DNA from: a virus
IMG/VR virus record: IMGVR_UViG_3300032268_000691
Location: 1-21,449 of that record
Direction: 5' to 3' (one strand)
Length of the DNA stretch: 21,449 nt
How positions within the stretch are numbered: position 1 is the stretch's first letter; each line of letters opens with the position of its first letter. Shown piece after piece: positions 1 through 15,800 of this stretch. The notes beneath the pieces are model-generated. The model searched no databases, was not told the DNA's origin, and saw only the letters and a list, made by a program, of their open reading frames with translations. The position numbers were made by a program, and so were the translations under genes.

Positions 1-2
1 CT

Positions 3-455
3 TTACCATATTATTTAGATTTGTTCTTTGAAACTAAAAATCCAAAAGAATTATTATTTTTGGATAATATGAATAAAACCATTGAGGAAACATTAATTAA
101 ATTATATGTTCTTGATGGTGCGCCAGTTATATCTGATTTTAAAGTTAATGTTAAATCTGCTGAAACTTATACAATATTAGTTAATATTAAAATAGATAAG
201 GAAAGTAATAAGGTGCCTTATACTGGGATAAAGTTTATTGCTGAATCTGCAACAACTAGCGACAATAAATATAAACTAACAGAAGATGATATTAAGTTAA
301 AAATAAAAAGTGATAGTAATTTCATTAAAAATGATGAAAATTCAAATAATAATGATATTATTGGTGATGTTTTTTCTATTGATGTTCCTTTATTAAAAAT
401 AAAATATTGGAGAGTTAATTATACAAAATTAATTTTATATCCTAAATTAAATTAA
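3..455 (+). CDS. Hypothetical protein, 5' end outside the window
   Basis: The frame is open to the left edge, so this is the C-terminal part of a longer protein. A TTG at position 21 could be read as a start but has no start-like context, and the codons before it (L-P-Y-Y-L-D) continue without a stop. About 150 residues are visible. They are Lys/Asn/Asp rich, with alternating hydrophobic stretches such as TYTILVNIKI and FSIDVPLLKIKYW that suggest beta strands. There is no cysteine and no membrane segment. The gene ends in TAA 53 bases before the next start. I do not recognise the family. Its place before two small genes and the terminator at 1464 suggests it is the downstream part of a structural or accessory operon, but that is inference. 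Confidence 0.6.
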   Translation, partial: LPYYLDLFFETKNPKELLFLDNMNKTIEETLIKLYVLDGAPVISDFKVNVKSAETYTILVNIKIDKESNKVPYTGIKFIAESATTSDNKYKLTEDDIKLKIKSDSNFIKNDENSNNNDIIGDVFSIDVPLLKIKYWRVNYTKLILYPKLN

Positions 456-508
456 AATTATTTGAATAATTGGTTTAATTGATATATTTATATGTAAAAT
501 AAAATAAT

Positions 509-724
509 ATGATTGAGAATTTAAATAGTTATTTAAGGCATTCATCATCAAAAAAAGAACAAATATTAGATGATGGTTCAAAAGAAGTTTGTGATTTAAT
601 CACAGGTGAATGTTTTGTTGTTAAAGAAAAAGATGGTTTAATTGAACGTACTGAAACTAAAACAATTAACAGACAAGTTAAAGTTAAAACTCATGGTGGG
701 ATAAAAGAATTATTAAACGATTAA
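509..724 (+). CDS. Small hypothetical protein (71 aa)
   Basis: A short ORF starting at an ATG with the leader AAATAATATG, the start context used by many genes here. It ends in TAA, 4 bases before the next ATG, so it is probably translated with the downstream gene. The product is charged and mostly hydrophilic. An N-terminal half with a polar SSSKKEQ stretch is followed by a short segment with two cysteines (residues 28 and 35, in CDLITGEC), then a basic C-terminal region ending in KELLND. No signal peptide or membrane helix is visible. The family is not recognised. It is called real because of its start context, tight spacing and lack of a competing frame. Confidence 0.6.
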   Translation: MIENLNSYLRHSSSKKEQILDDGSKEVCDLITGECFVVKEKDGLIERTETKTINRQVKVKTHGGIKELLND

Positions 725-728
725 TAAA

Positions 729-1445
729 ATGAAAATAGATCAGAAAATTTTAAATGAAATTAGTAGATATCATAATATCAACAGATATATTAGTGAGCAA
801 GATGCTACTTTACCTCCACCACCACCGCCTATGGGCGACCCAAATGCTGCACCAATGCCAAATGCACCATTAACCCCACCAGGAGAAGTTTCGCCAATCC
901 CACCAGGGGGTGCTGAAGATGCTTTAAGCACAGCAAATCCACAACCAATTGATGTTGAGACTGATGAAGATGTTACAGTTATTGATGATGAAGGGGATAG
1001 TGAAGAAAAGGGTGATGAGGGTGATTCAGAAGAATTAGATATTACTGATTTGGTTACCAGCCAAAAAAATATAGAATCAAAACAGACTGAATATTTTGAT
1101 AATTTATTTTCACAAATTACCAAGTTGGAGGAGAAATTAGCCAAAATGGATAGTATATTTGAAAAGTTAAATGCAATTGATTCAAAGGTTGAAAAATATC
1201 GTGAAAAAACTCCAGAGGAGAAACTTGAGTTAAGAACTTACGATTCTTATCCATTCAATCAAAAATTATCTCAATTTTTTGATGATAAACAAGTTGAAAT
1301 GGAAAAGAGTGGAAAAAATGATTATGTTTTAACATCGGATGATGTTGTAAATATTAATCCAAATGAGATAAAGAACTCATTTGGTTCTATGGATGATGAA
1401 GAGGATGATTTTATGAATGATAATAATTATAATTTCAGAAGATAA
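729..1445 (+). CDS. Pro-rich, acidic, coiled-coil protein; possible virion/prohead protein
   Basis: A 238-residue protein in three parts. Residues 1-26 form a polar N-terminal helix with two (L/I)-x-E tripeptides, L8-N-E10 and I21-S-E23. Residues about 29-80 are Pro-rich with a run of seven prolines, and residues about 77-105 are very acidic. Residues about 110-165 have heptad-like spacing typical of a coiled coil (FSQITKLEEKLAKMDSIFEK). The C-terminus is again acidic, ending in a DDEEDDF stretch and an Asn-rich tail. This disordered linker plus coiled coil layout suits a scaffold, internal head or tail-associated protein, but I cannot assign a family. It is the last gene before a strong terminator. 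The (L/I)-x-E motifs match the consensus cut by T4 prohead protease gp21, which leaves open a role as a packaged internal protein (inference). Confidence 0.65.
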   Translation: MKIDQKILNEISRYHNINRYISEQDATLPPPPPPMGDPNAAPMPNAPLTPPGEVSPIPPGGAEDALSTANPQPIDVETDEDVTVIDDEGDSEEKGDEGDSEELDITDLVTSQKNIESKQTEYFDNLFSQITKLEEKLAKMDSIFEKLNAIDSKVEKYREKTPEEKLELRTYDSYPFNQKLSQFFDDKQVEMEKSGKNDYVLTSDDVVNINPNEIKNSFGSMDDEEDDFMNDNNYNFRR

Positions 1446-1463
1446 TTTATTTTAATATTTTAT

Positions 1464-1492
1464 AAAAAAGGGGGTAACACCCCTTTTTTTTT
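1464..1492 (+). terminator. Rho-independent terminator
   Basis: Six A, then a G-run (1470-1474), a five-base loop TAACA, CCCC (1480-1483) and nine T. The A/G arm pairs with the C/T arm, and the U-tract is part of the 3' side. It lies 19 bases after the stop of the Pro-rich gene and 58 bases before the SSB gene, so it separates the upstream operon from the replication operon. Confidence 0.9.
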
Positions 1493-1549
1493 CTGATAAA
1501 GTTACCTATCATTGTTATGTAATATTGTTGTAAACAAAAACTATATAAT

Positions 1550-2407
1550 ATGTCGAATTTAGATGCCATAATGGCGCAGTATGAAAAAAACCAAAAAGGG
1601 GATTCCCAAAAATTATCGCAAGAGGACAGAATGAAACGTTATTTTACGTTATTACTTTCTGACAAAGAAAACACAGGACAAAGGAGAATTAGGATTTTGC
1701 CTACAACTGATGGCTCATCTGTATTTAAGGAGACGTGGTTTCATGAATTACAAGTTGGGGGGTATTACCAAAAGATTTATGACCCAGCAGGTAATGACAA
1801 TGAGGCATCCCCATTGAATGATGTTTACCATACATTGAAAGCAACCAAACGCAAAGATGATGATGAATTAGCCAAAGATTATAAGGCTAAACTATTTTAT
1901 GTTGTTAAGGTTATTGATAGAGACAAGGAAGAAGAAGGGCCAAAGTATTGGAGATTTAAGCACAATTATAAGAAGGATGGTATTTTAGATAAGATGATAC
2001 CAATCTTTAGAAACAAGGGGGATATTTCTGATATTGATAATGGAAGAGATTTGATTATCGAGTTAGTGAAATCAAAAAGTCCAAAAGGAAAGGAATATAC
2101 AAGTGTTTCCACAATTATGTATGATGATCCAGCACCTCTATCTACGGATGCTAATTTAGTAAAAAAATGGGTAGACGATGAATCTACTTGGAGAGATGTT
2201 TATAGTAGAAAACCAGTAGAATATCTTGAAGCAATTTCAAGAGGGGAATCCCCAAGATGGGATGAATCCCAAGGTAAGTATGTTTATTTGAACACATCAA
2301 ATTCTGAAGCATCCTTTGGTGGGGCAACTATTGCAAAAAACGCAACAGTTAAAGAAACGAATGTGGTTGTTGAGGATGACTACAATGATGATGAATTACC
2401 ATTCTAA
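1550..2407 (+). CDS. Single-stranded DNA-binding protein, T4 gp32-like
   Basis: A 285-residue protein close to T4 gp32 in size (about 301). It coats ssDNA at the replication fork and during recombination and recruits partners through its acidic tail. Visible support: an N-terminal basic region, an R-R-I-R-I-L-P strand near residue 45, a GPKYWRFKH segment around 130 that resembles the gp32 OB-fold core, and a strongly acidic C-terminus, DDYNDDELPF, the classical SSB protein-interaction tip. The whole protein lacks cysteine, so the zinc knuckle of T4 gp32 (three Cys, one His) cannot form. It starts at an ATG after ACTATATAAT and is the first gene of an operon continuing into UvsX, a 5' nuclease and the helicase, its expected functional partners. 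Confidence 0.88.
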   Translation: MSNLDAIMAQYEKNQKGDSQKLSQEDRMKRYFTLLLSDKENTGQRRIRILPTTDGSSVFKETWFHELQVGGYYQKIYDPAGNDNEASPLNDVYHTLKATKRKDDDELAKDYKAKLFYVVKVIDRDKEEEGPKYWRFKHNYKKDGILDKMIPIFRNKGDISDIDNGRDLIIELVKSKSPKGKEYTSVSTIMYDDPAPLSTDANLVKKWVDDESTWRDVYSRKPVEYLEAISRGESPRWDESQGKYVYLNTSNSEASFGGATIAKNATVKETNVVVEDDYNDDELPF

Positions 2408-2422
2408 TTAAACTAAAATAGA

Positions 2423-2465
2423 TTTTTTGCGCAAAGTATTGTTTTATGGTACTTTGTGCAAAAAA
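2423..2465 (+). promoter_or_regulatory. Long stem-loop between SSB and UvsX genes
   Basis: Arms 2423-2438 (TTTTTTGCGCAAAGTA) and 2450-2465 (TACTTTGTGCAAAAAA) pair over 16 bp with a single G.U wobble and enclose an 11-base loop (2439-2449). The T-tract is on the 5' side and the A-tract on the 3' side, the reverse of an intrinsic terminator on either strand. It is therefore more likely an RNA processing site, a mRNA stabiliser, an attenuator of SSB-to-UvsX readthrough, or a binding site. It starts 15 bases after the SSB stop and ends 25 bases before the uvsX ATG. Confidence 0.7.
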
Positions 2466-2490
2466 TATCTTTTCTTAAAAAAAATATAAT

Positions 2491-3492
2491 ATGGCTATAA
2501 AGAAAAAGGCATCAGTGAGTAGTATTGATGCTATTAAGGATAAGTTTTCTACAAAAACAAAGTATAAGCCTGAAGATTAGTATTCTTGTGGTGATGCTTT
2601 TTATAATGCTTGTGGTGTACCTGGTCCTGTTATGGGGGGTATAAGTATGTTTTTGGGACATTCCAATACAAGTAAGACAACTGCTATGATATTGGCTGCG
2701 GCTGACGCCCAGAAGAAGGGTCATTTACCTATTTTTATTATCACAGAAAAGAAATGGAATTGGGCACATGCTGTTGAATTGGGGTTGAATGCTGAAATTA
2801 ATGAAGATGGTGAGTGGGATGGTGATTTCATTTTTAATGATTCATTTGATTACATTGAGCAGATGACAGAATTTATAAATGAAATTTTGGATGCACAAGA
2901 GAAAGGAGATTTACCTTATTCTGTTTTATTTTTGATTGATAGTATTGGTTCAATACCTTGTAAGATGACCTTTGATGGAAAGGGGGGTAAGATGCACAAT
3001 GCTGCTGTTCTTGCTGATAAGGTTGGAATGGGTTTACATTCAAGGATTTCAAAATCAAAGAAAGAAGATTACCCCTACCATAATACCTTGGTTGTTATCA
3101 ATCAACCTTGGGTTGAATTACCAGATTCTCCATTTGGTCAGCCAACAATTAAAGCAAAAGGTGGTGAGGCTCTTTGGTTGGCATCTTCTTTAATATTCTT
3201 ATTTGGTAATCAGAAGAATTCAGGCATTAACCATATAACAGCAACAAAGAACGGCAGAACAGTTTCTTATGCTATTAGAACAAAGGTTTCAATATTGAAA
3301 AACCACGTTACTGGTATTGCGTATAAAGATGGTAAGATATTAGCTGTACCTCAAGGATATTTGCCAGACACAAAAGAGGCAATTGAAAAGTATAAAAAAG
3401 AATATTCCCAATATTGGAATGGTATTTTGTCTGGTGATGGTGATATTACCTTTTCAGAAAAAGATGAAGAAGACGCTATAATTTTTGAATAA
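2491..3492 (+). CDS. uvsX: UvsX/RecA-like recombinase with in-frame TAG at codon 30
   Basis: A strand-exchange ATPase that forms filaments on ssDNA for recombination-dependent replication. The ATG at 2491 has the local start context (AAATATAATATG) and opens a 333-codon frame interrupted only by TAG at 2578-2580. Downstream, residues 31-55 (YSCGDAFYNACGVPGPVMGG and on) fit the RecA-core strand before the nucleotide loop. Walker A is G56-H-S-N-T-S-K62-T63, with the non-glycine residue before Lys seen in phage UvsX proteins. Walker B is VLFLID ending at D150. Loop segments such as ITEKKW and INQPW follow. A restart at the ATG at 2632 would drop the strand before Walker A and probably not fold well. 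Amber readthrough, recoding, or a point mutation or error are the options. The next gene follows its TAA after one base. Confidence 0.82.
2578..2580 (+). other. In-frame amber codon inside uvsX
   Basis: The reading frame from ATG 2491 reads ...K-P-E-D-[TAG]-Y-S-C-G-D..., with uvsX-like coding sequence continuing to 3492 and no frameshift. A tryptophan (TGG), glutamine (CAG), lysine (AAG) or tyrosine codon is one base change away. Every other long gene in the window is free of in-frame TAG. Confidence 0.9.
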
Positions 3493-3493
3493 G

Positions 3494-4483
3494 ATGAAGA
3501 AAACCCTACTAATTGATGGCAACAACCTATTTACAATAGGTTTCCACGGAGTAAGAGAATTCTATGCCGATGGTAAGCACATTGGTGGGGTTTTCCATTT
3601 TTTAAATACAATTAGGTTATTTCTTGAAAAACATAATCATGATAAGGTTGTTGTATTCTGGGATGGAAATGAGAATTCCTTAATAAGAAAACAAATATAT
3701 CCAAAATATAAGGAGAATCGCAAGATTTCAATGGATGGGCATAAGTATGAATCTTATTTATATCAGAGGGAACGAGTTAAGGATTATCTTGAAGAAGTTT
3801 TTGTTAGACAATGCCAGGTGAATCAGAATGAGGCTGATGATTTGATTGCTTATTATACACAGATAGCCAAAGGTGAAAGTATGATTATTTTTTCAGCAGA
3901 TAAAGATTTAACTCAATTGATTGGGGAAAATGTAACAGTATATTCACCAAGTTCAAAGACATATAGTAAGAATGGGGATTTGATTCATTTCAAGGATATT
4001 GACATACCCCATAATAATGTCTATATTTATAAAGTAATTGTGGGGGATACTTCTGATAATATTGATGGGATATCTAATTTTGGTGAGAAGAAATTAAAAG
4101 CATTTTTCCCAAACTTTGAGAAGAGAGATTACCAGTTGGATGAAATATTAAATGAAGCAAAAGTTTTGCTTGAAGAAAAAAAGAATAAATCTCTGGATAA
4201 TTTGGTGTCAGGTATTAGCAAATCTGGTTTTGTTGGAGAAGAGTTTTTTGATAAAATTGGTAGAATAATTGATTTAAAAAATCCATTAATAACTGATAAC
4301 GGAAAGGAAATGGTTAATGAGATTTGCAACGATAAACTTGACCCAACAGATAGGAGTTATAAGAATTTAATGAAATTAATGAACGAGGATGGGTTCTTTA
4401 ATTTCCTTCCAAAGAGGGATGATGCGTGGGTTGATTTTGTTAGACCATTTATGAAATTGAGTAGAAAAGAAAGAAAAAATTAA
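3494..4483 (+). CDS. 5'-3' exonuclease / flap endonuclease (T4 RNase H-like)
   Basis: A 329-residue FEN-family nuclease that would remove RNA primers and 5' flaps on the lagging strand. The metal-binding acidic residues are visible in order: LLIDGN (D8), NEADD (E113, D115, D116), SADKD (D136, D138) and GDTSDN (D185, D188). The last leads into a helix-hairpin-helix-like segment, GISNFGEKKL. I chose the ATG at 3494, one base after the uvsX stop. A TTG three codons upstream (3485) would overlap uvsX by 8 bases and is less likely. T4 RNase H (rnh) is 305 residues, so the size fits. The neighbours are recombinase and helicase, consistent with a replication operon. Confidence 0.88.
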   Translation: MKKTLLIDGNNLFTIGFHGVREFYADGKHIGGVFHFLNTIRLFLEKHNHDKVVVFWDGNENSLIRKQIYPKYKENRKISMDGHKYESYLYQRERVKDYLEEVFVRQCQVNQNEADDLIAYYTQIAKGESMIIFSADKDLTQLIGENVTVYSPSSKTYSKNGDLIHFKDIDIPHNNVYIYKVIVGDTSDNIDGISNFGEKKLKAFFPNFEKRDYQLDEILNEAKVLLEEKKNKSLDNLVSGISKSGFVGEEFFDKIGRIIDLKNPLITDNGKEMVNEICNDKLDPTDRSYKNLMKLMNEDGFFNFLPKRDDAWVDFVRPFMKLSRKERKN

Positions 4484-4500
4484 TAATTAAACAACATTTT

Positions 4501-4959
4501 ATGAAACAGAATGAAACAACAAAGGTGGAATTTTTATTGACATTGAACAACAACATTATTGTTCAGAGGTTTTTAAACATTAAAAATATTAATCCAGACG
4601 CAAAAGATTCGGTAGAATTGTATGATTTTGTTAAGTATTTTTCAGAAGATTTGGAGAAATATTTAAAGATGAAATCAATTGGTTATTTGGTGGACAACAA
4701 AGATAATATTTTGTATGACCCCACAATAATGGAAACATCATCAACAGAGGAGGCTGAATTTTTTAATATTTATGTTAAAATTTCTGACCAAGTTATTTCT
4801 CACAGGATAATTGATGGTAAACTTTATCCACCAAAGGTAAGATACACAGTTGATATTCGTAATTTTATTAAGGAAACATTAAAAGAATTAACAAACATTT
4901 TAATTAGTCAAAATTTAACACACGAGTATTTAGAAAAGAATTTATTGTCTAACTATTAA
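4501..4959 (+). CDS. Hypothetical protein in the replication operon (152 aa)
   Basis: A soluble, mixed alpha/beta-looking protein between the 5' nuclease (17 bases upstream) and the helicase (10 bases downstream). It has no cysteine, no membrane segment and no motif I recognise. The N-terminal half has strand-like VEFLLTLNNNIIVQRFLNI followed by a helical YDFVKYFSEDLEKYLKM. The C-terminal half ends in a helix-rich stretch (IRNFIKETLKELTNILI). The position invites comparison with small replication accessory proteins such as a helicase loader (T4 gp59) or a late-transcription co-factor, but nothing in the sequence proves either. Start: ATG after ACAACATTTT, the first in the frame. Confidence 0.7.
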   Translation: MKQNETTKVEFLLTLNNNIIVQRFLNIKNINPDAKDSVELYDFVKYFSEDLEKYLKMKSIGYLVDNKDNILYDPTIMETSSTEEAEFFNIYVKISDQVISHRIIDGKLYPPKVRYTVDIRNFIKETLKELTNILISQNLTHEYLEKNLLSNY

Positions 4960-4969
4960 TAATTTTTTT

Positions 4970-6337
4970 ATGTCAAAGAATTTTGATTATTTGGGGCAGA
5001 CGTTCCAACTACAATTAATCAATCAGATTATATTAGATAAGGAATTTGCTAGGGCAATATTGGACTTTATTAAGATATCTTATTTTGAGAATAAGTATTT
5101 CAAATTAATCATTCAAATGATTAAGGAGTATCATAAGAAATATGATGCAGCCCCCAACTTTCAAACATTGGAAGTTGTTGCAAAGTCTGAAATAACACAA
5201 GAATTGGCTTTAAAAATTGTCATTGATACTATAAGTAAGATTAGTTCAGCACCACTTGATGGTGTTGAACTTGTCCAAGAAAAGGCACTTAAATTCTGCA
5301 AACAAGAAGAGGTTAAGATTGTATTGGAAAAAGCACAAAAAGTTATCAATGAGGGTGATTTTGAATCTTATGATCAACTTGAAGAATTATTAAGATATGC
5401 CCTTCAAGTTGGGGTTAAAGAAACAAATGGTTTTGAAGTTTTCAATGATTTGATTGGTGTATTAGATGAGGATTATAGACACCCCATACCAATGGGCGTG
5501 AAGGGCATAGACGTTCTCTTAAAGGGGGGTTTAGCCAAGGGTGAGGTTGGTATTATATTTGCAGGCCCAGGTATTGGCAAATCAACTCTATTGACCTTGG
5601 TTGCAAACACAGCTTTCAATAACAATTATAATGTGTTGCATATCTTTTTTGAAGATAACCCCAAGATTATACAAAGAAAGCATTTGACTCTTTGGACTAA
5701 AATATCCCCAGATGAACTGCCTAATAACAAAGAAATAGTATTAGAAACTGTTAATAATATAAAAGAAACCCACACAAATAAATTAATATTAAAGAAATTG
5801 CCATCTGATACTTTAACAATGAATCAGATTAAGAATCAAATTAGAAAGGTAATTGCTGATGGGATAAAACTTGACTTGGTTGTCTTGGATTATATTGATT
5901 GTGTTGTACCTGATAGACAAGGTAATGATGAGTGGAAAAATGAGGGATCAGTTATACGTCATTTTGAGGCAATGTGCCATGAGTTAAATATTGCTGGATG
6001 GCTTGGTACACAAGGGAATCGGTCTTCAATTTCTTCAAATGTGGTAACAAACGACCAGATGGGGGGTTCAATAAAGAAAGCACAAGTAGGTCATGTTATC
6101 ATTAGTATAGCAAAGAGTTTACAACAAAAAGAGATGAACCTAGCAACTGTTGCGATAACTAAATCAAGAATTGGTAAAGATGGTATTGTATTTGAGAATT
6201 GCAAATTTGATAATGAGATGCTTGAAATTGATACGGATACCACGGCAACATTCTTAGGTTTTGAAGAACAGCAAGTTGAGAAAAAGAAAGAAAGGATTAA
6301 AGAATTATTAGCAAAGAAAACAGATAATTTTTTATGA
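4970..6337 (+). CDS. Replicative DNA helicase, DnaB/T4 gp41-like
   Basis: A hexameric 5'-3' helicase that unwinds the replication fork and works with primase. At 455 residues it matches T4 gp41 (475). Residues 1-150 form the helical N-terminal domain. The RecA-type ATPase core carries Walker A G199-P-G-I-G-K204-S-T, Walker B VVLD ending at D307, and a GTQGNR motif near residue 345 in the position of the DnaB-family sensor/H3 motif. DQMGGSIKKAQ and the late ITKSRIGKDG segment match DnaB motif 4 and its basic finger region. The C-terminus (from about 430) is Lys/Glu-rich and probably flexible. This is the only gene in the window that clearly ends in TGA. It closes the replication block. Confidence 0.9.
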   Translation: MSKNFDYLGQTFQLQLINQIILDKEFARAILDFIKISYFENKYFKLIIQMIKEYHKKYDAAPNFQTLEVVAKSEITQELALKIVIDTISKISSAPLDGVELVQEKALKFCKQEEVKIVLEKAQKVINEGDFESYDQLEELLRYALQVGVKETNGFEVFNDLIGVLDEDYRHPIPMGVKGIDVLLKGGLAKGEVGIIFAGPGIGKSTLLTLVANTAFNNNYNVLHIFFEDNPKIIQRKHLTLWTKISPDELPNNKEIVLETVNNIKETHTNKLILKKLPSDTLTMNQIKNQIRKVIADGIKLDLVVLDYIDCVVPDRQGNDEWKNEGSVIRHFEAMCHELNIAGWLGTQGNRSSISSNVVTNDQMGGSIKKAQVGHVIISIAKSLQQKEMNLATVAITKSRIGKDGIVFENCKFDNEMLEIDTDTTATFLGFEEQQVEKKKERIKELLAKKTDNFL

Positions 6338-6356
6338 TAAAGATATTTTATACTCA

Positions 6357-6377
6357 AAAAGTGATACTTTTATTTTT
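6357..6377 (+). terminator. Weak candidate terminator after helicase gene
   Basis: AAAAGT (6357-6362) pairs with ACTTTT (6366-6371) around a three-base loop, and a T-rich tract follows (TATTTTTTG). The stem is short and has one G-C pair, so termination would be weak. It lies between the helicase stop and nrdB. Confidence 0.25.
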
Positions 6378-6384
6378 TGTTTTT

Positions 6385-6392
6385 ATATTTAT
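6385..6392 (+). promoter_or_regulatory. ATATTTAT box before nrdB (candidate promoter element)
   Basis: ATATTTAT ends 21 bases before the nrdB ATG. The same octamer occurs at 484-491, 10398-10405 and 12786-12793, each 17-18 bases before the ATG of the first gene of a putative transcription unit. In an AT-rich genome such octamers also occur by chance, so this is suggestive only. Confidence 0.3.
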
Positions 6393-6412
6393 CTTAACCT
6401 AATAATAGAAAA

Positions 6413-8374
6413 ATGAAAAAGAATATTTTTGAAAAAAGAGTGAATATTTTGCCTTATGAATATCCATCCTTATTGGCTTATAAGGATGCGATAAGGCACT
6501 CGTACTGGATACATTCGGAGTTTAACTTTACAACTGATATTGATGATTATAAGACAAAAATATCAAATGAAGAGAGGGAAGTTATTAAGAGGTCAATGTT
6601 GGCTATTGCTCAAATCGAGGTTAATGTGAAAACATTCTGGGCTGACCTTTATAAAAGAATGCCCATAACTGAAATTGGTGACGTTGGTATGACATTTGCA
6701 GAATGCCATGGTGAGGGAACTGAAATACTAACACCAAAAGGCTGGGTTAACTTTAAAGATATTGATATTAACACAGAAGTTATTCAATATGATTTAGAAA
6801 CCAATACAATGACATCTGTTTTACCAAGTAATGTTATCAATGAACCTTACAAGGGAAAAATGCACAGGATTGAGAACCAAACTTATAGTGCATTGCTTAC
6901 CCCCAACCATAACATTTACTACAAAACTAGGAGTGGTAATATTATAAAAAGGGCTATTAAAGATATTAATGCTTTTAGTAGTGATATGAAACTACCTTTT
7001 TCTGGTAAATTTGTTAATGAGGGGGTTGATGAGTTAACAACCATTGAAAGATTGAGAATTGCCATTCAAGCTGATGGATCTGCTAGATTCTGGGATAAAA
7101 ATGGTGAGAAAGTAAGAAGGGGTTCAGATTCAAATACTAATACATATGAAATTGGGGTTAAAAAAGAAAGGAAAAAAAATAGGCTTAAAAACCTTATTTT
7201 AGAGTCTGGATTAACTTATAGAGAGTATAATACATCAAGACCTGAATATGTTAAATATGAGATAGACTTTCCTATTGATTATGATCTTAAACAATTTGAT
7301 TGGGTTGATTTATCTGATAAGTCTGAAAAGTGGTGTAATTCCTTTATTGAAGAATTGATTGAATGGGATGGGACTAGATTAGAAGGTAAGGGTAATGCCA
7401 AGAATTGTCTTATTAGATATTCAACCACTAATAAATCATGTGCTGATAAGGTTCAGGCAATAGGATTTCTAGCAGGATATAGGGCTAATATGGGGACTTC
7501 AGTAGATAATAGGAAAGATTCTTATAAAGATGTTTATGCTATTAATTTTGTAAATGTAGAACCTTATTCCTCAATAACATACAGACCAACTATTGAGGAT
7601 TATGATGGTAATATTTATTGTGTCACAGTTCCAACTGGATGTATTGTAACTAGATATAATGATAAAGTTTTAATTTCAGGAAATTCGGAAGTAAGACATA
7701 AAGATGCTTATGCGCAATTATTAAGAATTCTTGGGTTGGAAAATGAGTTTCAGACAGTTATTGAAATTCCTGCCATAAAGAATAGAATTAGTTATCTATC
7801 AAAATATTTGGATGGGACAAGGAGCAAAGAGAATAAAATGTACACAAAGTCTGTATTATTATTTTCATTGTTTATTGAACATGTGAGTTTATTTAGCCAG
7901 TTCTTGATTATGATGTCCTTTAATAAGGAGAAAAATCTATTCAAGGGTATTTCAAATGTGGTTGAAGCCACATCAAAGGAAGAAGAAATTCATGGTAATT
8001 TTGGATCAGAACTTATTAATATTATTAAGGAAGAAAATCCAGAATGGTTTGATGATGAATTTGAGCAACTGATTGTTTCTGCTTGCCATAAAGCATATGC
8101 TGCTGAATGTGGAATACTAGATTGGATATTTGAGCATGGTGAATTAAGTTTCTTATCAAAAGATACAATTAAACATTTCATTCAAAATAGATTTAACAAT
8201 TCATTAAATAGAATTGGAATGAAGCCAGTATTTGAGGTTGATTTTACAGAGATTGAGAAGACGTTATGGTTTGATGTGGAGATTTTATCAACAAAGGAGG
8301 GGGATTTTTTCTATAAAAAATCGGTGGATTACAATAAAAAGAGCAAGAGCATAACAGAAGATGATTTATTTTAA
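6413..8374 (+). CDS. nrdB: Ribonucleotide reductase class I beta subunit, intein-containing
   Basis: The 653-residue precursor makes the radical-generating R2 subunit after splicing out a 327-residue intein (residues 98-424), leaving a 326-residue mature protein, normal for NrdB. Before the intein: metal ligand E69 in AQIEVNV. After it: S425-E426-V-R-H429-K-D-A-Y433, giving the E-x-x-H ligand pair and the tyrosine four residues after the His, the position of the radical Tyr (E. coli Y122). The second ligand set is in FIEHVSLF and KEEEIHG. No ATP-cone precedes the core. It starts at an ATG after AATAGAAAA, and nrdA follows 12 bases after its TAA. With NrdA it supplies deoxynucleotides for phage replication. 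Confidence 0.93.
   Translation: MKKNIFEKRVNILPYEYPSLLAYKDAIRHSYWIHSEFNFTTDIDDYKTKISNEEREVIKRSMLAIAQIEVNVKTFWADLYKRMPITEIGDVGMTFAECHGEGTEILTPKGWVNFKDIDINTEVIQYDLETNTMTSVLPSNVINEPYKGKMHRIENQTYSALLTPNHNIYYKTRSGNIIKRAIKDINAFSSDMKLPFSGKFVNEGVDELTTIERLRIAIQADGSARFWDKNGEKVRRGSDSNTNTYEIGVKKERKKNRLKNLILESGLTYREYNTSRPEYVKYEIDFPIDYDLKQFDWVDLSDKSEKWCNSFIEELIEWDGTRLEGKGNAKNCLIRYSTTNKSCADKVQAIGFLAGYRANMGTSVDNRKDSYKDVYAINFVNVEPYSSITYRPTIEDYDGNIYCVTVPTGCIVTRYNDKVLISGNSEVRHKDAYAQLLRILGLENEFQTVIEIPAIKNRISYLSKYLDGTRSKENKMYTKSVLLFSLFIEHVSLFSQFLIMMSFNKEKNLFKGISNVVEATSKEEEIHGNFGSELINIIKEENPEWFDDEFEQLIVSACHKAYAAECGILDWIFEHGELSFLSKDTIKHFIQNRFNNSLNRIGMKPVFEVDFTEIEKTLWFDVEILSTKEGDFFYKKSVDYNKKSKSITEDDLF
6704..7684 (+). 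other. Intein with LAGLIDADG-type endonuclease domain in NrdB
   Basis: The intein starts at C98 (C-H-G-E-G-T-E-I-L-T-P, block A) and ends at ...L-I-S-G-N424, with S425 as the +1 nucleophile. Block B is T163-P-N-H166 (TxxH). The C-terminal splicing block is YCVTVPTG followed by the V-L-I-S-G-N end. The usual penultimate His is replaced by Gly. A homing endonuclease domain lies between: LRIAIQADG (residues 214-222, D221) and IEELIEWDG (312-320, D319) look like the two LAGLIDADG helices with both acidic residues kept. The insertion lies one residue before the E-x-x-H iron-ligand motif, a highly conserved and hard-to-lose target. Confidence 0.9.
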
Positions 8375-8386
8375 AAAACAAATATA

Positions 8387-10012
8387 ATGAATAAAGAAAA
8401 ATATTATTGGTTAAATGATGAGAGTAGGCTTTTCTTATCAAGGGGGTATATAAATGAAACCCCCGAGCAAAGGATTAAAGATATTGCAAATAAAGCAGAG
8501 GGGTATTTAAAAATTGATGGTTTTGCTGTTAAGTTTGAGGAATATATGGCAAAAGGTTTTTACAGCCTTTCTACACCTGTATGGATTAATTTTGGTAAAG
8601 AAAAGGGATTGCCCATATCCTGCTATGGATCCAATATTGATGACACATTAGATAGCATTTTAAATGCTGGAAGAGAGATTGGTATGATGTCAAAATATGG
8701 TGGTGGAACTAGTGCTTATTTAGGTAATATTAGAGCAAGGGGAACTAAAATATCAACAGGTGGTACAGCAGATGGGCCAGTTCATTATGCAAGGGTGTAT
8801 GACACAGTAGTTGACGTTTGTAAACAATCAGAGGCAAGAAGGGGGGCATGTGCAGTCTGGTTACCAGCTGAACATGAGGATATTATGGAGTTTCTTGATA
8901 TTGGAACAGAAGGTAATCCAATCCAGAATTTACAATATGGTGTTACTGTTACAGATAATTGGATTAATGATATGAAGGGGGGAGACCCAAGCAAGAGAAA
9001 GATATGGGCAAAGATTATTCAAAGGCGTAATGAGTTTGGTTTCCCATATATTATGTTTAAGGATAACTCAAATAACAATTCCCCCTACAAAGAGTTGGGT
9101 ATGGAGATAACTGCTTCAAATTTATGCAGTGAAATTCAATTACCAACAGATTCATTAAACTCATTTGTTTGTTGTTTGGGTTCATTGAATTTACTTCATT
9201 GGGATGAGATAATTGAGACTGATGCAATTGAGGTTTATACAATGTTCTTAAATGCAGTTATGGATGAATTTATATTGAAGTCAGGTAAAATGGCTGGCAT
9301 GAAAAGAGCTAATAGATTTGCATCACAACATAGAGCAATTGGCTTGGGGGTTTTGGGTTATCATTCATTATTTCAATCAAAATTAATTCAATTTGAATCT
9401 TTGATGGCGAAGCAATTAAATCATCAAATATTTAAAACAATTAAAGAAAAATCTGAATTAGCTTCAAAATATTTATATGAAGAGAAGGGGTATGAATGTT
9501 TAAGAGAGGGTTATGCCAACACAACATTAATTGCTATTGCCCCAACCAAGTCAAGTTCTTTTATTTTAGGACAAGTAAGCATGGGTATTGAGCCAATCAA
9601 ATCAAATTATTTTATTAAAGATTTGGCAAAATCAAAAACAATTTATAAGAATCCATTTTTGGAAATTGAATTGGATAAGTATGGTTTAAATACACCAGAA
9701 ACCTGGGAAAGCATTTTAAAGAAAGATGGATCGGTTCAGCATTTGGATTTTCCCACAAAAGAGGTGTTTAAATCATTTATTGAAATATCACCAAAAGAAT
9801 TGATATTACAAGCAGCACAGAGGCAAAAATTTATTGACCAATCACAGTCATTAAATTTGATGATACACCCATCAGTTCCAGCAAAGGATATAAATCAATT
9901 ATATCTATATGCACATGAAGAGGGGGTTAAGACGCTTTACTATCAGTTTAGCCAGAGTTCAGCACAATCATTTGCAAGAAATATTAATGAGTGTGTGAGT
10001 TGTGAATCGTAG
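8387..10012 (+). CDS. nrdA: Ribonucleotide reductase class I alpha subunit, short form
   Basis: The catalytic R1 subunit that reduces ribonucleotides using the radical from NrdB. At 541 residues it is much shorter than E. coli NrdA (761) because it lacks the N-terminal ATP-cone and most of the N-terminal helical domain. Catalytic residues are all visible: C79 (ISCY), N245-L-C247-S-E249, C262 (VCCLGSLNL), the radical-relay pair Y518-Y519 (TLYYQ) and a C-terminal thiol pair C536-V-S-C539. It starts at an ATG after ACAAATATA, 12 bases behind nrdB. It ends in TAG at 10010-10012. If that TAG were read through, only two codons follow (a residue plus Ile) before TGA at 10016-10018. A bidirectional terminator follows. 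Confidence 0.93.
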   Translation: MNKEKYYWLNDESRLFLSRGYINETPEQRIKDIANKAEGYLKIDGFAVKFEEYMAKGFYSLSTPVWINFGKEKGLPISCYGSNIDDTLDSILNAGREIGMMSKYGGGTSAYLGNIRARGTKISTGGTADGPVHYARVYDTVVDVCKQSEARRGACAVWLPAEHEDIMEFLDIGTEGNPIQNLQYGVTVTDNWINDMKGGDPSKRKIWAKIIQRRNEFGFPYIMFKDNSNNNSPYKELGMEITASNLCSEIQLPTDSLNSFVCCLGSLNLLHWDEIIETDAIEVYTMFLNAVMDEFILKSGKMAGMKRANRFASQHRAIGLGVLGYHSLFQSKLIQFESLMAKQLNHQIFKTIKEKSELASKYLYEEKGYECLREGYANTTLIAIAPTKSSSFILGQVSMGIEPIKSNYFIKDLAKSKTIYKNPFLEIELDKYGLNTPETWESILKKDGSVQHLDFPTKEVFKSFIEISPKELILQAAQRQKFIDQSQSLNLMIHPSVPAKDINQLYLYAHEEGVKTLYYQFSQSSAQSFARNINECVSCES

Positions 10013-10033
10013 ATTTGATGCAATTTGTTAAAT

Positions 10034-10074
10034 AAAAAACCCCCAACCTATTAATTTAGAATTGGGGTTTTTTT
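10034..10074. terminator. Bidirectional terminator between convergent genes
   Basis: The A-tract plus CCCCCAA arm (10034-10046) pairs with the TTGGGG plus T-tract arm (10062-10074) around a 15-base A/T-rich loop. The T-tract follows on the + strand and, by symmetry, on the - strand. It sits 15 bases after the nrdA readthrough stop and 3 bases beyond the end of the minus-strand gene, so it can stop transcription from both sides. Confidence 0.9.
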
Positions 10075-10077
10075 ATT

Positions 10078-10338
10078 TTATTTTCCACTCAATGTGTCAT
10101 AAATACGTTCAAGTTTTTTTACATCAGCTTCACTAAATGCAAAATTACTATTATCAAATTTATCTTTCATTGTTGAAAGTTTATCTGTGATTTTTTTAAT
10201 CATAGATAGTGCTTTTTTGCCAGTTTTTGCTTTACCTTCTTTATGGTAGTCCATAAAGTGACCTTCACTTCCTTTATCTTCAACAATTCTTTTAACTAGT
10301 TTATTTAAACCAGCTTCTGTTAATCTTACTGTTCTCAT
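10078..10338 (-). CDS. Small basic protein with N-terminal RLTEAGLNKLVKRIVE-type motif (86 aa)
   Basis: The only minus-strand gene I accept. The start is the ATG at 10336-10338; a TTG eight codons upstream is possible but unlikely. The N-terminus, R-L-T-E-A-G-L-N-K-L-V-K-R-I-V-E, is an amphipathic basic helix with two (L/I)-x-E tripeptides (residues 6-8 and 18-20). As far as I recall, similar leaders head many small proteins of large marine and environmental myoviruses. The rest is Lys-rich and helical (MIKKITDKLSTMKDKF, DVKKLERIYDTLSG), with no cysteine and no membrane segment. It sits between convergent nrdA and divergent gp25, with its own candidate late promoter and a shared terminator, like a self-contained cassette. 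Function unknown; a packaged internal or head-associated protein is one possibility. Confidence 0.75.
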   Translation of the reverse strand: MRTVRLTEAGLNKLVKRIVEDKGSEGHFMDYHKEGKAKTGKKALSMIKKITDKLSTMKDKFDNSNFAFSEADVKKLERIYDTLSGK

Positions 10339-10349
10339 AATTTTTTTTA

Positions 10350-10357
10350 TATAAATA
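10350..10357 (+). promoter_or_regulatory. Candidate late promoter for the gp25-gp6 operon
   Basis: An exact TATAAATA octamer, the T4 late-promoter consensus, in the intergenic region 65 bases before the gp25 ATG and in the right orientation. In T4 this box is read by the gp55 sigma factor. Its presence before structural genes but not before the replication operon supports the call. Chance occurrence in AT-rich DNA remains possible. Confidence 0.45.
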
Positions 10358-10398
10358 TACAATAAATTAAAATAGTTTACAAATTTGTGAAAAAGATA

Positions 10399-10406
10399 TA
10401 TTTATA
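10399..10406 (-). promoter_or_regulatory. Candidate late promoter for the minus-strand gene
   Basis: TATTTATA on the + strand reads TATAAATA on the minus strand, 61 bases before the small gene's ATG. Together with the plus-strand box at 10350-10357, the two promoters face each other, so their transcripts would overlap at the 5' ends. The same bases also form the + strand ATATTTAT box 17 bases before gp25, so the assignment is ambiguous. Confidence 0.4.
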
Positions 10407-10421
10407 TTTAAATGAGTTATA

Positions 10422-10898
10422 ATGGCTGAAGGTTTTACATATGGTGTTGATTTCCCCTTTGATACATCACTTAGGGGTGATGCCTTAAAGATGACAGAAA
10501 CAGCTTCAGATGAGATTAGAGCATCTTTATTGCATTTGTTATTAACAAGAAAAGGTAGCAGATATTATTTACCAGATTTTGGGACAAGATTATATGAATT
10601 TCTATTTGAACCATTGGATGTTGTTTCATTTGATGTGATTGAAAATGATATTAGGGATTCTGTTGCAAAGTATATACCAAATTTGGTTATCAACAAGATA
10701 ATCATTGAGCCTTTGGATCAGAATGAGGAGGTTCAAGGAAACAGATTGAGTGTGGATGATGTGGGGTTATCATCAAGGGATAAGGTTTATCGTTCGCCTG
10801 GTAATGGCACATATCAAAATACAGCAAAAATAAAAATAGAATACACTACAAATAACAATAGTTTTTCAGGTAGTGAATTTGTCGTAATAAATATATAA
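10422..10898 (+). CDS. Baseplate wedge protein, T4 gp25-like
   Basis: A 158-residue member of the gp25/GPW family, which starts sheath assembly from the inner baseplate. The family core is clear: an N-terminal VDFPFDTS segment, the helix KMTETASDEIRASLLHLLLT (residues 23-42), RKGSRYYL and P51-D-F-G-T55, followed by LYEFLFEPLD. The C-terminal third (PLDQNEEVQ to INI) includes a polar insertion before the last strand and makes it slightly longer than T4 gp25 (132). It is the first gene of the tail operon, and the gp6-like gene starts 2 bases after its stop, the same adjacency seen in many contractile tail systems. Confidence 0.88.
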   Translation: MAEGFTYGVDFPFDTSLRGDALKMTETASDEIRASLLHLLLTRKGSRYYLPDFGTRLYEFLFEPLDVVSFDVIENDIRDSVAKYIPNLVINKIIIEPLDQNEEVQGNRLSVDDVGLSSRDKVYRSPGNGTYQNTAKIKIEYTTNNNSFSGSEFVVINI

Positions 10899-10899
10899 T

Positions 10900-12732
10900 A
10901 TGTCAGATAGAAAAATATCATATGGTGTTAGGGATTTTCAAAGTATAAGAACAGAATTATTAAATTATGTTAAGGCTTATTATCCTGATTTAATAAATGA
11001 TTTTAATGATGCTTCAATATTTTCTGTATTTCTTGATTTGAATGCTGCGGTGGCAGATAATTTGCATTACCATATTGATAGAAGTTTGCAAGAAACTGTT
11101 TTACAATATGCACAACAAAAGTCATCAATATATAATATTGCAAGGACATATGGGTTAAAAATACCTGGACAACGACCATCTTTAACTTTATGTGATTTTT
11201 CAATAACTGTTCCAGTATTTGGTGATAAAGCTGATGCAACATACGCTGGTGTTCTTGAAAGGGGTGCGCAAGTTTTGGGTAATGGAATTATTTTTGAAAC
11301 AATAAATGACATTGACTTTTCATCTGATTATGATGGGCAAGGAATACCAAATAGAACGGTTATACCAAATAAATTAAATAATATTATTATTAATTATACA
11401 TTAACAAAACGTGAGCCAGTTATCAATGGTGTTACAAAAGTATTTAAAAGAGTTATAACCTCATCTGATGTTAGACCATTTTTTGAATTATTTTTACCAG
11501 ATAAGAATGTTTTGGGTATAACAAGTGTATTGCTTAAAGATGGCCAAATAAATACAATACCCCCATATTCTGACTTTATAAGTGATACCAATAAATGGTA
11601 CGAGGTTGATTCTTTGGCAGAGGATAGGGTTTTCATCATTGACCCATCAAAAGATACGGGAAATGCTAGTATAAAGGTTGGTAAATATATTCAGACAGAT
11701 AATAGATTTGTGAGCGAATTTACCCCAGAGGGATTTAAAAAAATAACATTTGGTAATGGGGTTAATACAGCATTGGAACAATTAAACCAATTTACTACAA
11801 CAGGTCAATTACCGACATTGCAAAATTATTTGAATAACTTTTCATTGGGTCGAACATTAAAACCTAATAGCACCTTATTTGTTCAATATAGAGTTGGGGG
11901 TGGTTTGAATACAAATTTAGGACCAAATACTATTAATCAAATTGGAGTTAATTCTTTTAGAATAAATGCTGGAAATCCAGCACAAGAATCTTCTGTTATT
12001 AATTCATTAAGGGTTAATAATTTATTTCCCGCCATTGGTGGCGCTGGATTACCTACAACAGAAGAGGTTAGAAATTTTGTATCTTTTAATTTTGCTGCAC
12101 AAAAAAGAGCGGTAACAATTAATGATTATGAGGCAATTATTAGAAATATGCCTTCCCAATTTGGATCGCCAGCAAAGGTTGCAGTTCAAGAGGTGGATAA
12201 TAAGATACAGATTCTTGTATTATCTTATGATTCAAAGGGAAAATTAATTTCAGATAATTCAAAATTTTTAACGGATAATATTGCAAATTATTTATCAAAT
12301 TATAGAATGATAAATGATTATATTGTTGTATCATCAGCAAAAGTGATTGATGTTAGTGTTGAGGCGTCAATTACAATTTCCCCAGGTTTCACATCAAAAG
12401 ATATTATAAATAATGTAATTTCAACAATTAATGGGTATTTTATCCCACAAAGCATTCAGTTGGGTAATGACATTAACGTATCTGAAATAAAGAGTAGTAT
12501 TCAAAAATTAAATGGGGTAATTTCAATATCTGATTTGGTTTTCACCAATCAAGTTGGTGGAAATTATTCTGGGGGTGAAACATCTATGCCTTATTCAAAT
12601 ACATCGAGTAGAACTATTGCTGCTATTGATGAAACTATTTTTGCTGAACCAAATGAAATATATCACATAAGATATCCAGAAAAAGACATTAGAGTTAAAG
12701 TGAAAACAAATAATGGTTTAACAATCGGTTAA
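10900..12732 (+). CDS. Baseplate wedge protein, T4 gp6 / baseplate J-like
   Basis: A 610-residue protein comparable to T4 gp6 (660), which forms the continuous inner ring of the baseplate by linking wedges. The N-terminal region has the conserved pattern of gp6 homologues: YGVRDFQSIRTELLNYVKAY, an NDASIFSVFLDLNAAVADNL helix, and HIDRSLQETVLQYAQ leading to ARTYGLKIPGQRPS. The middle is beta-rich with Gly/Asn turns. The C-terminal part (from about residue 390) has EEVRNFVSFNFAAQKRAVT and an NDYEAIIRNMP segment, hallmarks of the J/gp6 family. It follows gp25 directly and has the same ATAATATG start context. It ends 78 bases before the 1641-residue gene. Confidence 0.88.
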   Translation: MSDRKISYGVRDFQSIRTELLNYVKAYYPDLINDFNDASIFSVFLDLNAAVADNLHYHIDRSLQETVLQYAQQKSSIYNIARTYGLKIPGQRPSLTLCDFSITVPVFGDKADATYAGVLERGAQVLGNGIIFETINDIDFSSDYDGQGIPNRTVIPNKLNNIIINYTLTKREPVINGVTKVFKRVITSSDVRPFFELFLPDKNVLGITSVLLKDGQINTIPPYSDFISDTNKWYEVDSLAEDRVFIIDPSKDTGNASIKVGKYIQTDNRFVSEFTPEGFKKITFGNGVNTALEQLNQFTTTGQLPTLQNYLNNFSLGRTLKPNSTLFVQYRVGGGLNTNLGPNTINQIGVNSFRINAGNPAQESSVINSLRVNNLFPAIGGAGLPTTEEVRNFVSFNFAAQKRAVTINDYEAIIRNMPSQFGSPAKVAVQEVDNKIQILVLSYDSKGKLISDNSKFLTDNIANYLSNYRMINDYIVVSSAKVIDVSVEASITISPGFTSKDIINNVISTINGYFIPQSIQLGNDINVSEIKSSIQKLNGVISISDLVFTNQVGGNYSGGETSMPYSNTSSRTIAAIDETIFAEPNEIYHIRYPEKDIRVKVKTNNGLTIG

Positions 12733-12765
12733 TTTATTTATTTTACCGCAATATTCTTTATAAGT

Positions 12766-12773
12766 TATAAATA
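12766..12773 (+). promoter_or_regulatory. Candidate late promoter before the giant baseplate gene
   Basis: An exact TATAAATA, 38 bases before the ATG at 12811, in a 78-base gap holding no gene. It would let the downstream tail genes be expressed separately from gp25-gp6. An ATATTTAT box (12786-12793) lies between it and the start. Confidence 0.42.
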
Positions 12774-12810
12774 ATGTATACTAAAATATTTATAATCAAT
12801 AAAGAATATA

Positions 12811-15800
12811 ATGCAAAATAATTTTAGAATTAGGACTGAAATTGGTAAAGATAAAATTGTCAATTTTCAGTTGGATCAAAATATTGAATTCCTTGAGATT
12901 TTATCTTTTAAAATAAGGCAATCTGATGTTTACACATTAGACTGCGCTAATTATGGTGTTGTTGTTGGGAGGGTTACGGCAAACAACGGTTTTGGTATTC
13001 CAAATGCTAGGGTATCAATTTTTATTCCATTAAGTGATGAAGATTCTGATAATGAGTTAATCACATCAATATACCCATATAAGACAATAACAGAAAAGAA
13101 TGAAGATGGTTATAGGTATAATTTATTACCGTATAAACCATCATATCCTGGTCACGTTGCAACTGGAACATTCCCCACAATAGACGATGTTATGTTTGAT
13201 GGTCAAGCCATAGAAGTTTATGAAAAGTATTACAAATATACTGTAAAGACAAATTCAAGTGGGGATTATATGATGTTTGGTGTACCAATCGGTAGTTATA
13301 GTATTTTAATGGATTTGGATTTATCAGATATGGGGGAATATTCATTAACGCCCCAAGATTTGATAAGGATGGGTATGGCAACTGAAGGACAATTTGATAA
13401 TAATCAATATCAACAATCAACAGATTTAAGTTCTTTGCCCCAAATTGTGTCAATATCAAAAGGTATTAATATTTCTCCATTGTGGGGGGATCCTGAAACT
13501 TGTGATTCTTCGATTAATAGGTCTGATTTTGATTTAAGGGATGATGTAAATATTGACATACAACCAACTGCAATATTTATTGGGTCAATATTTAGTACAG
13601 CCTCAAATAAAAGAATACGTTCAAATTGTAAGCCAAAAGATGATTTTGGTAATTTATGTGGATTGGAAACGGGTCCAGGTAGTATATTAGCAATAAGGCA
13701 AACATTAAATAAAGATGAAAAAGGGTTACCTATATTAGAAACATATAGAGTAGGTAATGTTATTGATTCAGATGGTTCTTGGGTTGTTGAATTACCTATG
13801 AATTTAGAATATGTTATTACAAATGAGAATGGAGATAAGATAATAACAAATGACCCAAGCATAGGAATACCAACAAAAGGTAAATATAGATTTAAGATTA
13901 AATGGGAGCAATCCACAAAGATAAGTGAACAAACAAAAAGAGCATATTTTCTTGTTCCAAATATTAAAGAATATGGATGGAATAATCTTGGCACTATTGA
14001 CCCAATGAATTCCAATAATGATAATAAAAATCAACTTGCTGGTTCATATTATTTTGGATTGGATTGGTCTGGTTATACAAATAGTGATGCAGCAATAAGG
14101 TGTGAGGATACTTTTTATGAATTTAAATCAAATAAAGTTTATACGGTATCAAGTTTAATTGACCAATATAGGGGCGGTAGTAGTAAGGGTAATTTTATTG
14201 GGATTAAAGAAATTGCAGATACATCATGTGATGCTACAATTAATAAATACCCAGTTAACGATGGGGTTAGGAATTTTGATTTTTTATTTTTTCTATTTTC
14301 AATATTATTTCTTTTATTTTCAACACCAGGTAGAGTTCTTTTAATTGTATTCCATTTTGTTAAATTTTTATGGAATTTATTTGCTGTACCTTTAACTTAT
14401 GCTACTGCTGTTGCATTACCTATTTTATCGGCATTTTTATTTGTTCAAGCAGCAACATCATTCCCAGCGGTTGGTTTGATATTAGGGTTTGCTACATTAG
14501 GTGGAATAGTTGTGGCAGCAACAGTTAGATTTTTTAAAGCATTTAAAGAGGTTAAAAATTTTAAATTCCAAAAATTAAATTTACCTATGATAACATATCC
14601 AGATTGCGAACTTTGTGATTGTGGAGATAATGATATGGAGTTATCAGATAGTGGAATACCAACTGGGGGTTTAATTGCACAATTGGCAAATCCTATGTTA
14701 TATAGGGATGCAGTAACATCTAAAGTCGAGACAATAATAAAAAGTAAGACAACATTTGGGGTAAATTTAAAAGAAGAACTATTGATTGATTTGGATAATA
14801 TTGTTTCATTATCAACTGAAGCGTATATTGGTCAAACTTATGATATTAATAAACCATATAGATTTAGAGCCTTATTTTCAAATATTTATTTGATGCCATC
14901 AACCAGAACACAAGTTGCGGCAGTTGCAGTTGGGTTACCCCCTGCTGAAAGGATTAATAAATTTAATAGTAGGGAGAATTATTTTAAAGGTAATACAAGA
15001 ATTGACGTTACATTCGCTAGTAAAAATAATAAAGAACAACATAGTGATAATGTTTTAGTTATAGTTGCTAGTGAAAATAGAGAATCTGGTACATTATTAA
15101 CGTTTTTGAATTTTGATAAATCAAAAGATATTAATTTCATATCTGGTTATACTGCAACAACAAAAATATCAGCAGAAACAAATAATAGTGAGGTGGTTGT
15201 TAAATACGCTAACCCATCAAATCCAAAAAGTTTATTAGAGAAAAAATATATGTTACCATACGGTGTTGATATTAATAAATATTTGTTTCCAGCAGATATT
15301 GAGTTTTATCAAGTTGTAACTGGTATGACAGTAAGTGAGTTTAAAAGTAAATCAAATCAAAATTCAACCTTGGCTGATGGGTCATTTAATTGGCAATGTC
15401 TAAGGCCAAGGTCAACAGAATTAATTTTTGACTTTGCAGAAGGTAAAAATCCAAATTTAAGTCGATGGCAAGATGAAATTTTTTCAGAGATTTCAAAAAA
15501 TGATGGTATTATAAATTATTTTAATGATATTGATAATCAGTATGTTTTAATATTACAAAGGGGGGTTGATCCATATTCACCACTTTACGAAAATACATAT
15601 AATTTAGGTAAAATATTTGGATTTGCCAATACTAATCAAATAAGTATAAAAACAAACACAAGATTAAATATACCAATTCAACCACTAGAAACATATTCAG
15701 TCCAACAAACAAATGTTTCAAATGAAATAATGTTTGATTCATATTTTTTAAGACCCATAAATTCTAGTATAGGATTTGGGGCAAATCAAGCATATCCATT

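Follow-up and report, generated by a model that had tools for sequence, protein, structure and literature searches.

The stem-loop between the genes for the single-strand DNA-binding protein (ssb) and the recombinase UvsX in the window, i.e., the whole 21,449-nucleotide stretch of viral DNA analyzed here, is probably the single-stranded view of a DNA dyad, which would represent an AbiEi-type operator carried without its operon. AbiE is a type IV toxin-antitoxin system directed against phages, and dyads of this kind serve as the switch of its operons in Bacteroidota. Judging from its sequence, the motif itself is quite likely to be an AbiEi-type operator, and its binding by AbiEi in nature is slightly favored. 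The underlying observations were obtained by computation, namely the dyad with its fixed geometry, its conservation and inversion among relatives, and the match to sites just upstream of AbiEi genes. A site in double-stranded DNA is indicated because the gap between the arms is fixed at 11 nt, the core is found inverted, and the dyad matches AbiEi operators.

The stem-loop (TTTTTTGCGCAAAGTA-TTGTTTTATGG-TACTTTGTGCAAAAAA) contains 16 pairs, including one G.U (2431/2457), and an RNA fold of the region reaches 21 pairs over 2422-2466, with -22.2 kcal/mol and z of -5.7. None of 200 dinucleotide shuffles was as good, which agrees with the initial annotation that the stem is too long for chance; its placement between the SSB and UvsX genes was likewise borne out by protein family matches (Table 1). 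The hairpin ranked second among 48 inverted repeats of the window. The initial annotation also ascribed to it the wrong polarity for an intrinsic terminator; this is correct for the inner T6 and A6 tracts, which pair with each other, and incorrect for the bases outside them, where the A-rich AAAATAGA lies on the 5' side and the T-rich TATCTTTTCTT on the 3' side. A simple terminator scan of positions 1-13000 lists the structure as terminator-like, with four GC pairs counted in the stem and the tail ATCTTTTCTT; this evidence is weak, since the scan returned seven sites, two of them being this hairpin, compared to 4.9 +/- 2.0 in shuffles. An ordinary terminator-like hairpin with a T run is found at 1464-1489, between the upstream gene and ssb.

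Table 1. Coordinates of the dyad, its parts and the surrounding genes in the window.
Feature	Position	Strand	Basis or remark
43-bp dyad/stem-loop, putative AbiEi-type operator by sequence	2423..2465		two 16-nt arms, 11 nt between; top site of the matrix
Outer TTTGC, left half-site	2426..2430		TTTGC-N27-GCAAA found upstream of AbiEi genes
Outer GCAAA, right half-site	2458..2462		TTTGC-N27-GCAAA found upstream of AbiEi genes
Core GTATTGTTTTATGGTAC	2436..2452		reverse complement (few changes allowed) in 28/53 element-keeping loci
5-nt dyad center	2442..2446		alignments
Outward CT, 6-7 nt after GCAAAA	2469..2470	+	enriched at that offset, 19/32 half-site flanks
T-rich stretch after stem, possible terminator tail	2468..2476	+	sequence, terminator scan
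ssb, gp32-like single-strand DNA-binding protein gene	1550..2407	+	PHROG 1192 (E 1.7e-7), PHROG 224 (E 6.1e-6); Pfam gp32 (E 1.4e-6)
ssb-uvsX spacer holding the element	2408..2490	+	sequence
uvsX reading frame	2491..3492	+	2632-3489 matches UvsX-like recombinase; in-frame TAG at 2578-2580

The in-frame TAG of uvsX corresponds to a Tyr codon in 57/57 relatives read there, so that it is either a nonsense mutation private to the window or an error of sequencing. Elsewhere in the window, the small subunit of ribonucleotide reductase (6413-8374) was matched in two stretches, its frame being apparently interrupted by an intein as judged by eye, and the frame at 19380-19937 has a long TPT-rich repeat and no Pfam match. 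UvsX matched Flavobacterium phages in 4/4 records, all from one phage group, and a baseplate protein did so in four of the seven records matched, which suggests a Bacteroidota host for this phage. This assignment is not certain, and the host phylum is left in doubt because the sole isolate match of the SSB is a Microcystis phage.

Relatives of the SSB are encoded at 62 loci; five of these (L055, L057, L060, L061 and L063) were dropped, and the remaining 57 together with the window gave 58 ssb-uvsX spacers. The dyad is kept nearly unchanged in 53 of the 58, and the other five (L015, L018, L041, L042 and L044) have a different, GC hairpin in the same spacer. The dyad is dispensable, because L015 and L018, with SSB identities of 97% and 93%, bear such an ordinary GC hairpin instead. 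The core GTATTGTTTTATGGTAC is oriented as in the window in 25 of the 53 spacers, the others having its reverse complement. On the ssb tree (37 distinct rows), both orientations occur on either side of the best-supported deep split, so that a minimum of two changes is required; the parsimony counts are three changes for B, four for A and three for the GC hairpin. Template switching between the arms of a quasi-palindrome is a known type of mutation that gives inversion, and a DNA site with two-fold symmetry would be unaffected by such a core inversion. The near-identity of the element extends to high divergence. For example, the window and L046 share an element that is 43/43 identical, with 49% identity at 63 fourfold sites of ssb and 64/106 identical fourfold sites in uvsX. 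Recombination of the spacer as the source of this identity was rejected because fourfold sites have diverged in both genes, and a very local conversion is possible.

The initial annotation had taken the G.U wobble as a hint of selection on the RNA and had proposed a comparison of related genomes for compensatory changes. Neither line led to RNA pairing: among 11 distinct ssb-family elements, 0/19 pairs had changed at both positions, and six of these 11 elements do not form the pair adjacent to the G.U. Across 16 independent elements there are compensatory changes at five pairs, which is not in excess of shuffles. An RNA element with covariation was rejected, since pairing is supported by neither the 11 ssb-family nor the 16 independent elements. 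The proposal that the hairpin acts as RNA, either as a target of the phage SSB or through processing that sets the ratio of ssb to uvsX, draws on the strong fold, the strategic place and the gp32-like nature of the SSB; given the absence of two-sided changes in the 11 elements, Rfam matches that were all far below gathering scores, and the recurrence of the dyad away from ssb genes, we regard it as very improbable. Relatives conserve the sequence and the dyad, the orientation being free and base pairing not being what is kept; this distinction between constrained sequence and unpreserved pairing follows from the near-identity at high divergence, the core inversions and the absence of two-sided changes.

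The dyad also occurs in other phages, with the same spacing. A scan of viral contigs that allowed 6-16 nt between the arms gave 11 nt in 51/51 stretches, 34 of which are the ssb site and 17 of which are spread over four other lineages; a looser scan (9-13 nt allowed) gave 11 nt in 58/58 and five further lineages. The dyad of L180, from an earlier scan, represents the tenth other lineage. These ten lineages were told apart by gene neighbors, and L128 was left out as too weak. It should be noted that conserved letters in the non-ssb members are partly imposed by the search patterns, and only the 11-nt gap, the CT, the loop and the proximity to AbiEi are unaffected by this. The CT enrichment (Table 1) was counted beyond the bases fixed by the patterns, and 0/5000 shuffles match it at any of 16 offsets. 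A spacer query against phage isolates (50,697 records) returned four weak Listeria phage matches that were judged unrelated.

The locations of these dyads fall into several types: (i) 0-30 nt past a stop codon (L162, L180, L324, L341 and L345); (ii) overlapping the end of an ORF (L343); (iii) farther behind a gene, at 49 nt in L339 and 121 nt in L340; and (iv) between tRNA genes, 8 nt behind tRNA-Gln (L154 and L333). Convergent gene pairs flank the dyad in three lineages (L162, L324 and L340), and inspection by eye shows that the element of L162 is also traversed by a small ORF. L332 and L177, similarly to L154 and L333, have orphan dyads within phage tRNA clusters, behind tRNA-Gln genes.

The sporadic spread across phages and chromosomes would be compatible with the insertion behind ssb of a mobile hairpin, either of the REP/RAYT kind or a small element with inverted repeats, and a longer repeat with a similar palindromic core does exist in one Bacteroidetes MAG. 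REP/RAYT palindromes, like the phage dyad, are short and lie near gene 3' ends. The phage dyad differs from them in being present as a single copy: a search for a dispersed repeat in this phage and related ones found one strong copy per phage record searched, as opposed to the high copy number of REP/RAYT. A Y1 transposase was detected in 0/12 phage records and in 1/5 cellular genomes (a partial match); REP/RAYT was rejected because this cognate transposase was not found in the 12 phage records, and an inserted mobile hairpin of any kind has very little to recommend it. In the Bacteroidetes MAG (L224, L225, L227-L229, L231-L233), the repeated element is ~100-140 bp long with a palindromic core, e.g., GATTTTTGCGTAAAGTAGGGGTTGCAACCCCTACTTTACGCAAAAATC; there are eight exact pattern matches in that genome and more by covariance model.

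Among the scans of cellular genomes, the signal came from the covariance model and the AbiEi neighborhood only; when 395 Bacteroidota genomes were scanned with a plain pattern (<=3 mismatches), there were matches in four genomes versus five for the reversed control, i.e., no excess. The covariance model, seeded with 16 elements (11 phage lineages and five cellular) and given a short calibration, matched 10/295 Bacteroidia genomes, one of which (G021) is a seed, and 1/299 Pseudomonadota genomes, at the L230 site already found by pattern. Each of the nine new Bacteroidia genomes has one site, and eight of the nine sites lie beside abiE genes: seven adjoin the 5' end of an AbiEi antitoxin gene (PF09407), with start codons at dyad loci being estimated, and one directly follows a gene for the AbiEii toxin (PF08843). 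The ninth site (L365) is behind a 452-aa ORF, with AbiEi elsewhere in the genome, and AbiEi is encoded in all nine genomes.

Conversely, AbiEi picked by protein alone yielded 17 loci in 15/198 genomes, and TTTGC-N27-GCAAA with at most two mismatches was found at -38 to -58 in 12 of the 17, compared to an expectation of ~0.09 per 100 nt; it is mildly circular that the gap used to find these sites came from the phage element. Three further loci have the motif with three mismatches at -38 to -58, and seven of the 12 sites are not covariance-model matches. This tally counts each repeated upstream region once; L365, L396 and L397 had no match to AbiEi. A wider count of 16/24 mixes model-selected and protein-selected loci and includes one site at -90 and one locus short of upstream sequence; a Fisher value of 2.3e-8 assumes that the 198 genomes are within the 295 and counts one seed genome, and is not relied on.

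A matrix built from the 12 AbiEi operators ranked position 2423 first in the window, with 36.0 bits versus 6.4 for the next site and 19.8 for the best of 20 block-shuffled windows; this score is within the 18.6-43.7 range of the abiE dyads, which were scored without being left out. Related phage loci totaling 0.97 Mb, with the five best sites of each considered, contained 60 sites of at least 15 bits, and all of these have TTTTTTG, as the ssb element does. The operators covary with the N-terminal domain of AbiEi (Mantel r 0.55, 0/2000 permutations) and nearly as strongly with its C-terminal part (r 0.45, 3/2000); the N-terminal r falls to 0.28 (46/2000) without two near-duplicates. In the window, inverted TTTGC/GCAAA half-sites are thus present at 2426-2462 with the N27 spacing of Bacteroidota, and the gene next to the dyad is uvsX, not abiEi. 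AbiEi_1 was not found in 19 element-bearing virus records (most may be fragments), AbiEi_4 was not found in 20 virus records, and neither was found in 10 window frames, so that any binder would come from the host. AbiEi_1 was also not found in the genomes of four cellular seeds (L222, L223, L226 and L337), and another regulator may therefore use the same dyad; the cellular seed L336 adjoins AbiEi, as found after seeding. The N27 dyad is absent from L398 and L399, two viral contigs that encode AbiEi. In L222, at 6647-6985, there is a cellular orphan dyad and, 58 nt downstream of it, a gene that matches the PADLOC candidate defence model PDC-M44A. The abiE operon of G518 has AbiEi-type dyads at both ends (L383, 1230-1280 and 2905-2955), an arrangement that could permit repression by looping.

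The phage dyad might be a promoter-operator that drives uvsX under repression by an AbiEi-like protein, in the manner of abiE promoters. The abiE dyads start ~48 nt upstream of abiEi, and the phage dyad ends 25 nt before uvsX; moreover, TTTTTTG and TACTTT are ~20 nt apart in the window, a spacing of such elements that is typical of Bacteroidota promoters, where TAnnTTT is the -7 consensus. However, TAnnTTT is present at -7 in the gene direction in only 1/11 phage elements versus 9/14 abiE dyads (p 0.012), the contrast being weaker when either strand is allowed (4/11 versus 9/14), and the sites flanked by convergent genes have no evident gene to drive. A promoter alone was rejected because few phage elements retain the -7 motif and convergent genes flank some sites, and a promoter-operator for uvsX is improbable. 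A pure binding site (decoy or roadblock) fits better than a promoter, given the positions behind genes and the poorly kept -7 motif.

A role at the ssb 3' end, which the initial annotation had raised, is plausible, as the element sits in a real 3'-end slot. Wider relatives with 60-69% SSB identity, encoded at no fewer than 69 loci, gave 52 distinct segments after repeated and short ones were dropped; among the matches listed, 50 of the 52 ssb 3' ends fold strongly (MFE <= -12 within 60 nt after the stop codon), compared to 47/202 other ORF ends of the same loci. At least five T in the eight bases after the stem were counted in 36 of the 50 scored stems among these listed matches, two segments having no scored stem. 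These hairpins are similar to the window element in slot and stem strength and differ from it in that their stems are varied, often GC-rich with T tails, whereas the sequence of the window element is nearly fixed. The window dyad thus appears to occupy a slot where relatives carry another, mostly terminator-like, hairpin, and termination or a 3'-end role is plausible because the ssb ends of wider relatives fold, many with a T tail. We give even chances to the dyad being also a partial terminator of ssb.

It is a different and rather unlikely proposition that the hairpin is solely a terminator or 3'-end stabilizer of ssb, partly read through into uvsX, with its AbiEi resemblance lacking function. 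The folding ssb ends of wider relatives, the GC hairpins that replace the dyad in the same spacer, and the strong stem followed by TATCTTTTCTT would all be expected on this explanation. A plain terminator, however, would not require that 43 bases stay nearly identical between such diverged genomes, or that arms and gap recur unchanged in other phages, and several members of the dyad family have no T tract. The recombinase of Flavobacterium phage immuto shares 40% identity with UvsX, and in that phage 2 nt separate ssb from the recombinase gene, the spacer being absent; this also speaks against the proposition.

If the dyad is an orphan AbiEi-type operator, an AbiEi-family winged-helix protein from the host, a resident plasmid or a prophage would bind both half-sites on phage DNA. 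With many phage genomes per cell, the dyad might then act as a decoy or sink for the regulator, although we are less sure of this step and doubt that the decoy effect is the main benefit. Alternatively, the bound protein may block or set transcription between ssb and uvsX. As RNA, the hairpin fills the terminator slot of ssb and may in addition end or trim part of the ssb transcripts. What a phage would gain from derepressing abiE is not obvious. Only tentatively, we suggest that diverse phages, probably of Bacteroidota, keep single orphan AbiEi operators as a DNA decoy or regulatory foothold for the abortive-infection antitoxin-repressor of the host, blunting or retuning AbiE or placing phage genes under it. 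If this is true, a phage would engage a toxin-antitoxin system via operator DNA, not via an inhibitor protein; if the host reads the titration, the orphan operator would instead be a phage-sensing cue. A conserved operator copy on phage DNA offers a concrete and cheap way to ask how AbiE systems sense phages and how phages counter them. More generally, the case would show that a strong stem-loop between genes need not be an RNA element and may instead be a dyad that binds a protein. The papers listed from the literature searched, with subscription journals largely outside it, included no report of orphan abiE operators in phages.

The AbiEi protein of Streptococcus agalactiae is a repressor of its operon, whose promoter contains two 23-bp inverted repeats to which the protein binds (PMC3985639). 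These repeats, TGTTGCTTTTATACCACAAATAT-N3-AAAATTGTAGTGTAAAAGCAACA, are 3 bp apart and have TTGC/GCAA near their ends (PMC3985639). Repeat spacing differs within the AbiEi family, since 13 bp are described between the repeats of Rv2827c (PMC7319586). For the AbiE toxins, an activity as tRNA nucleotidyltransferases is predicted, and a decoy role has been suggested for phage tRNAs (PMC7725324); two orphan sites in phage tRNA clusters may or may not be related to this idea. The S. agalactiae abiE operator of Dy et al. 2014 (PMC3985639) resembles the phage dyad in its TTGC/GCAA outer ends and AT-rich arms. It differs in having, by our own count, 37 nt between the two GC, versus 27 in the Bacteroidota and phage dyads, i.e., one helical turn, and in its location in the abiE promoter, whereas the phage dyad lies behind ssb, without abiE. 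The phage dyad also resembles the abiE promoter dyads of Bacteroidia (L366, L368-L373 and most of L375-L390), which have TTTGC-N27-GCAAA and a length of ~43 bp, as the phage dyad does, and several of which share its GTA..TAC inner arms; these dyads lie upstream of AbiEi, whereas those of phages stand alone, most of them directly after genes or tRNAs.
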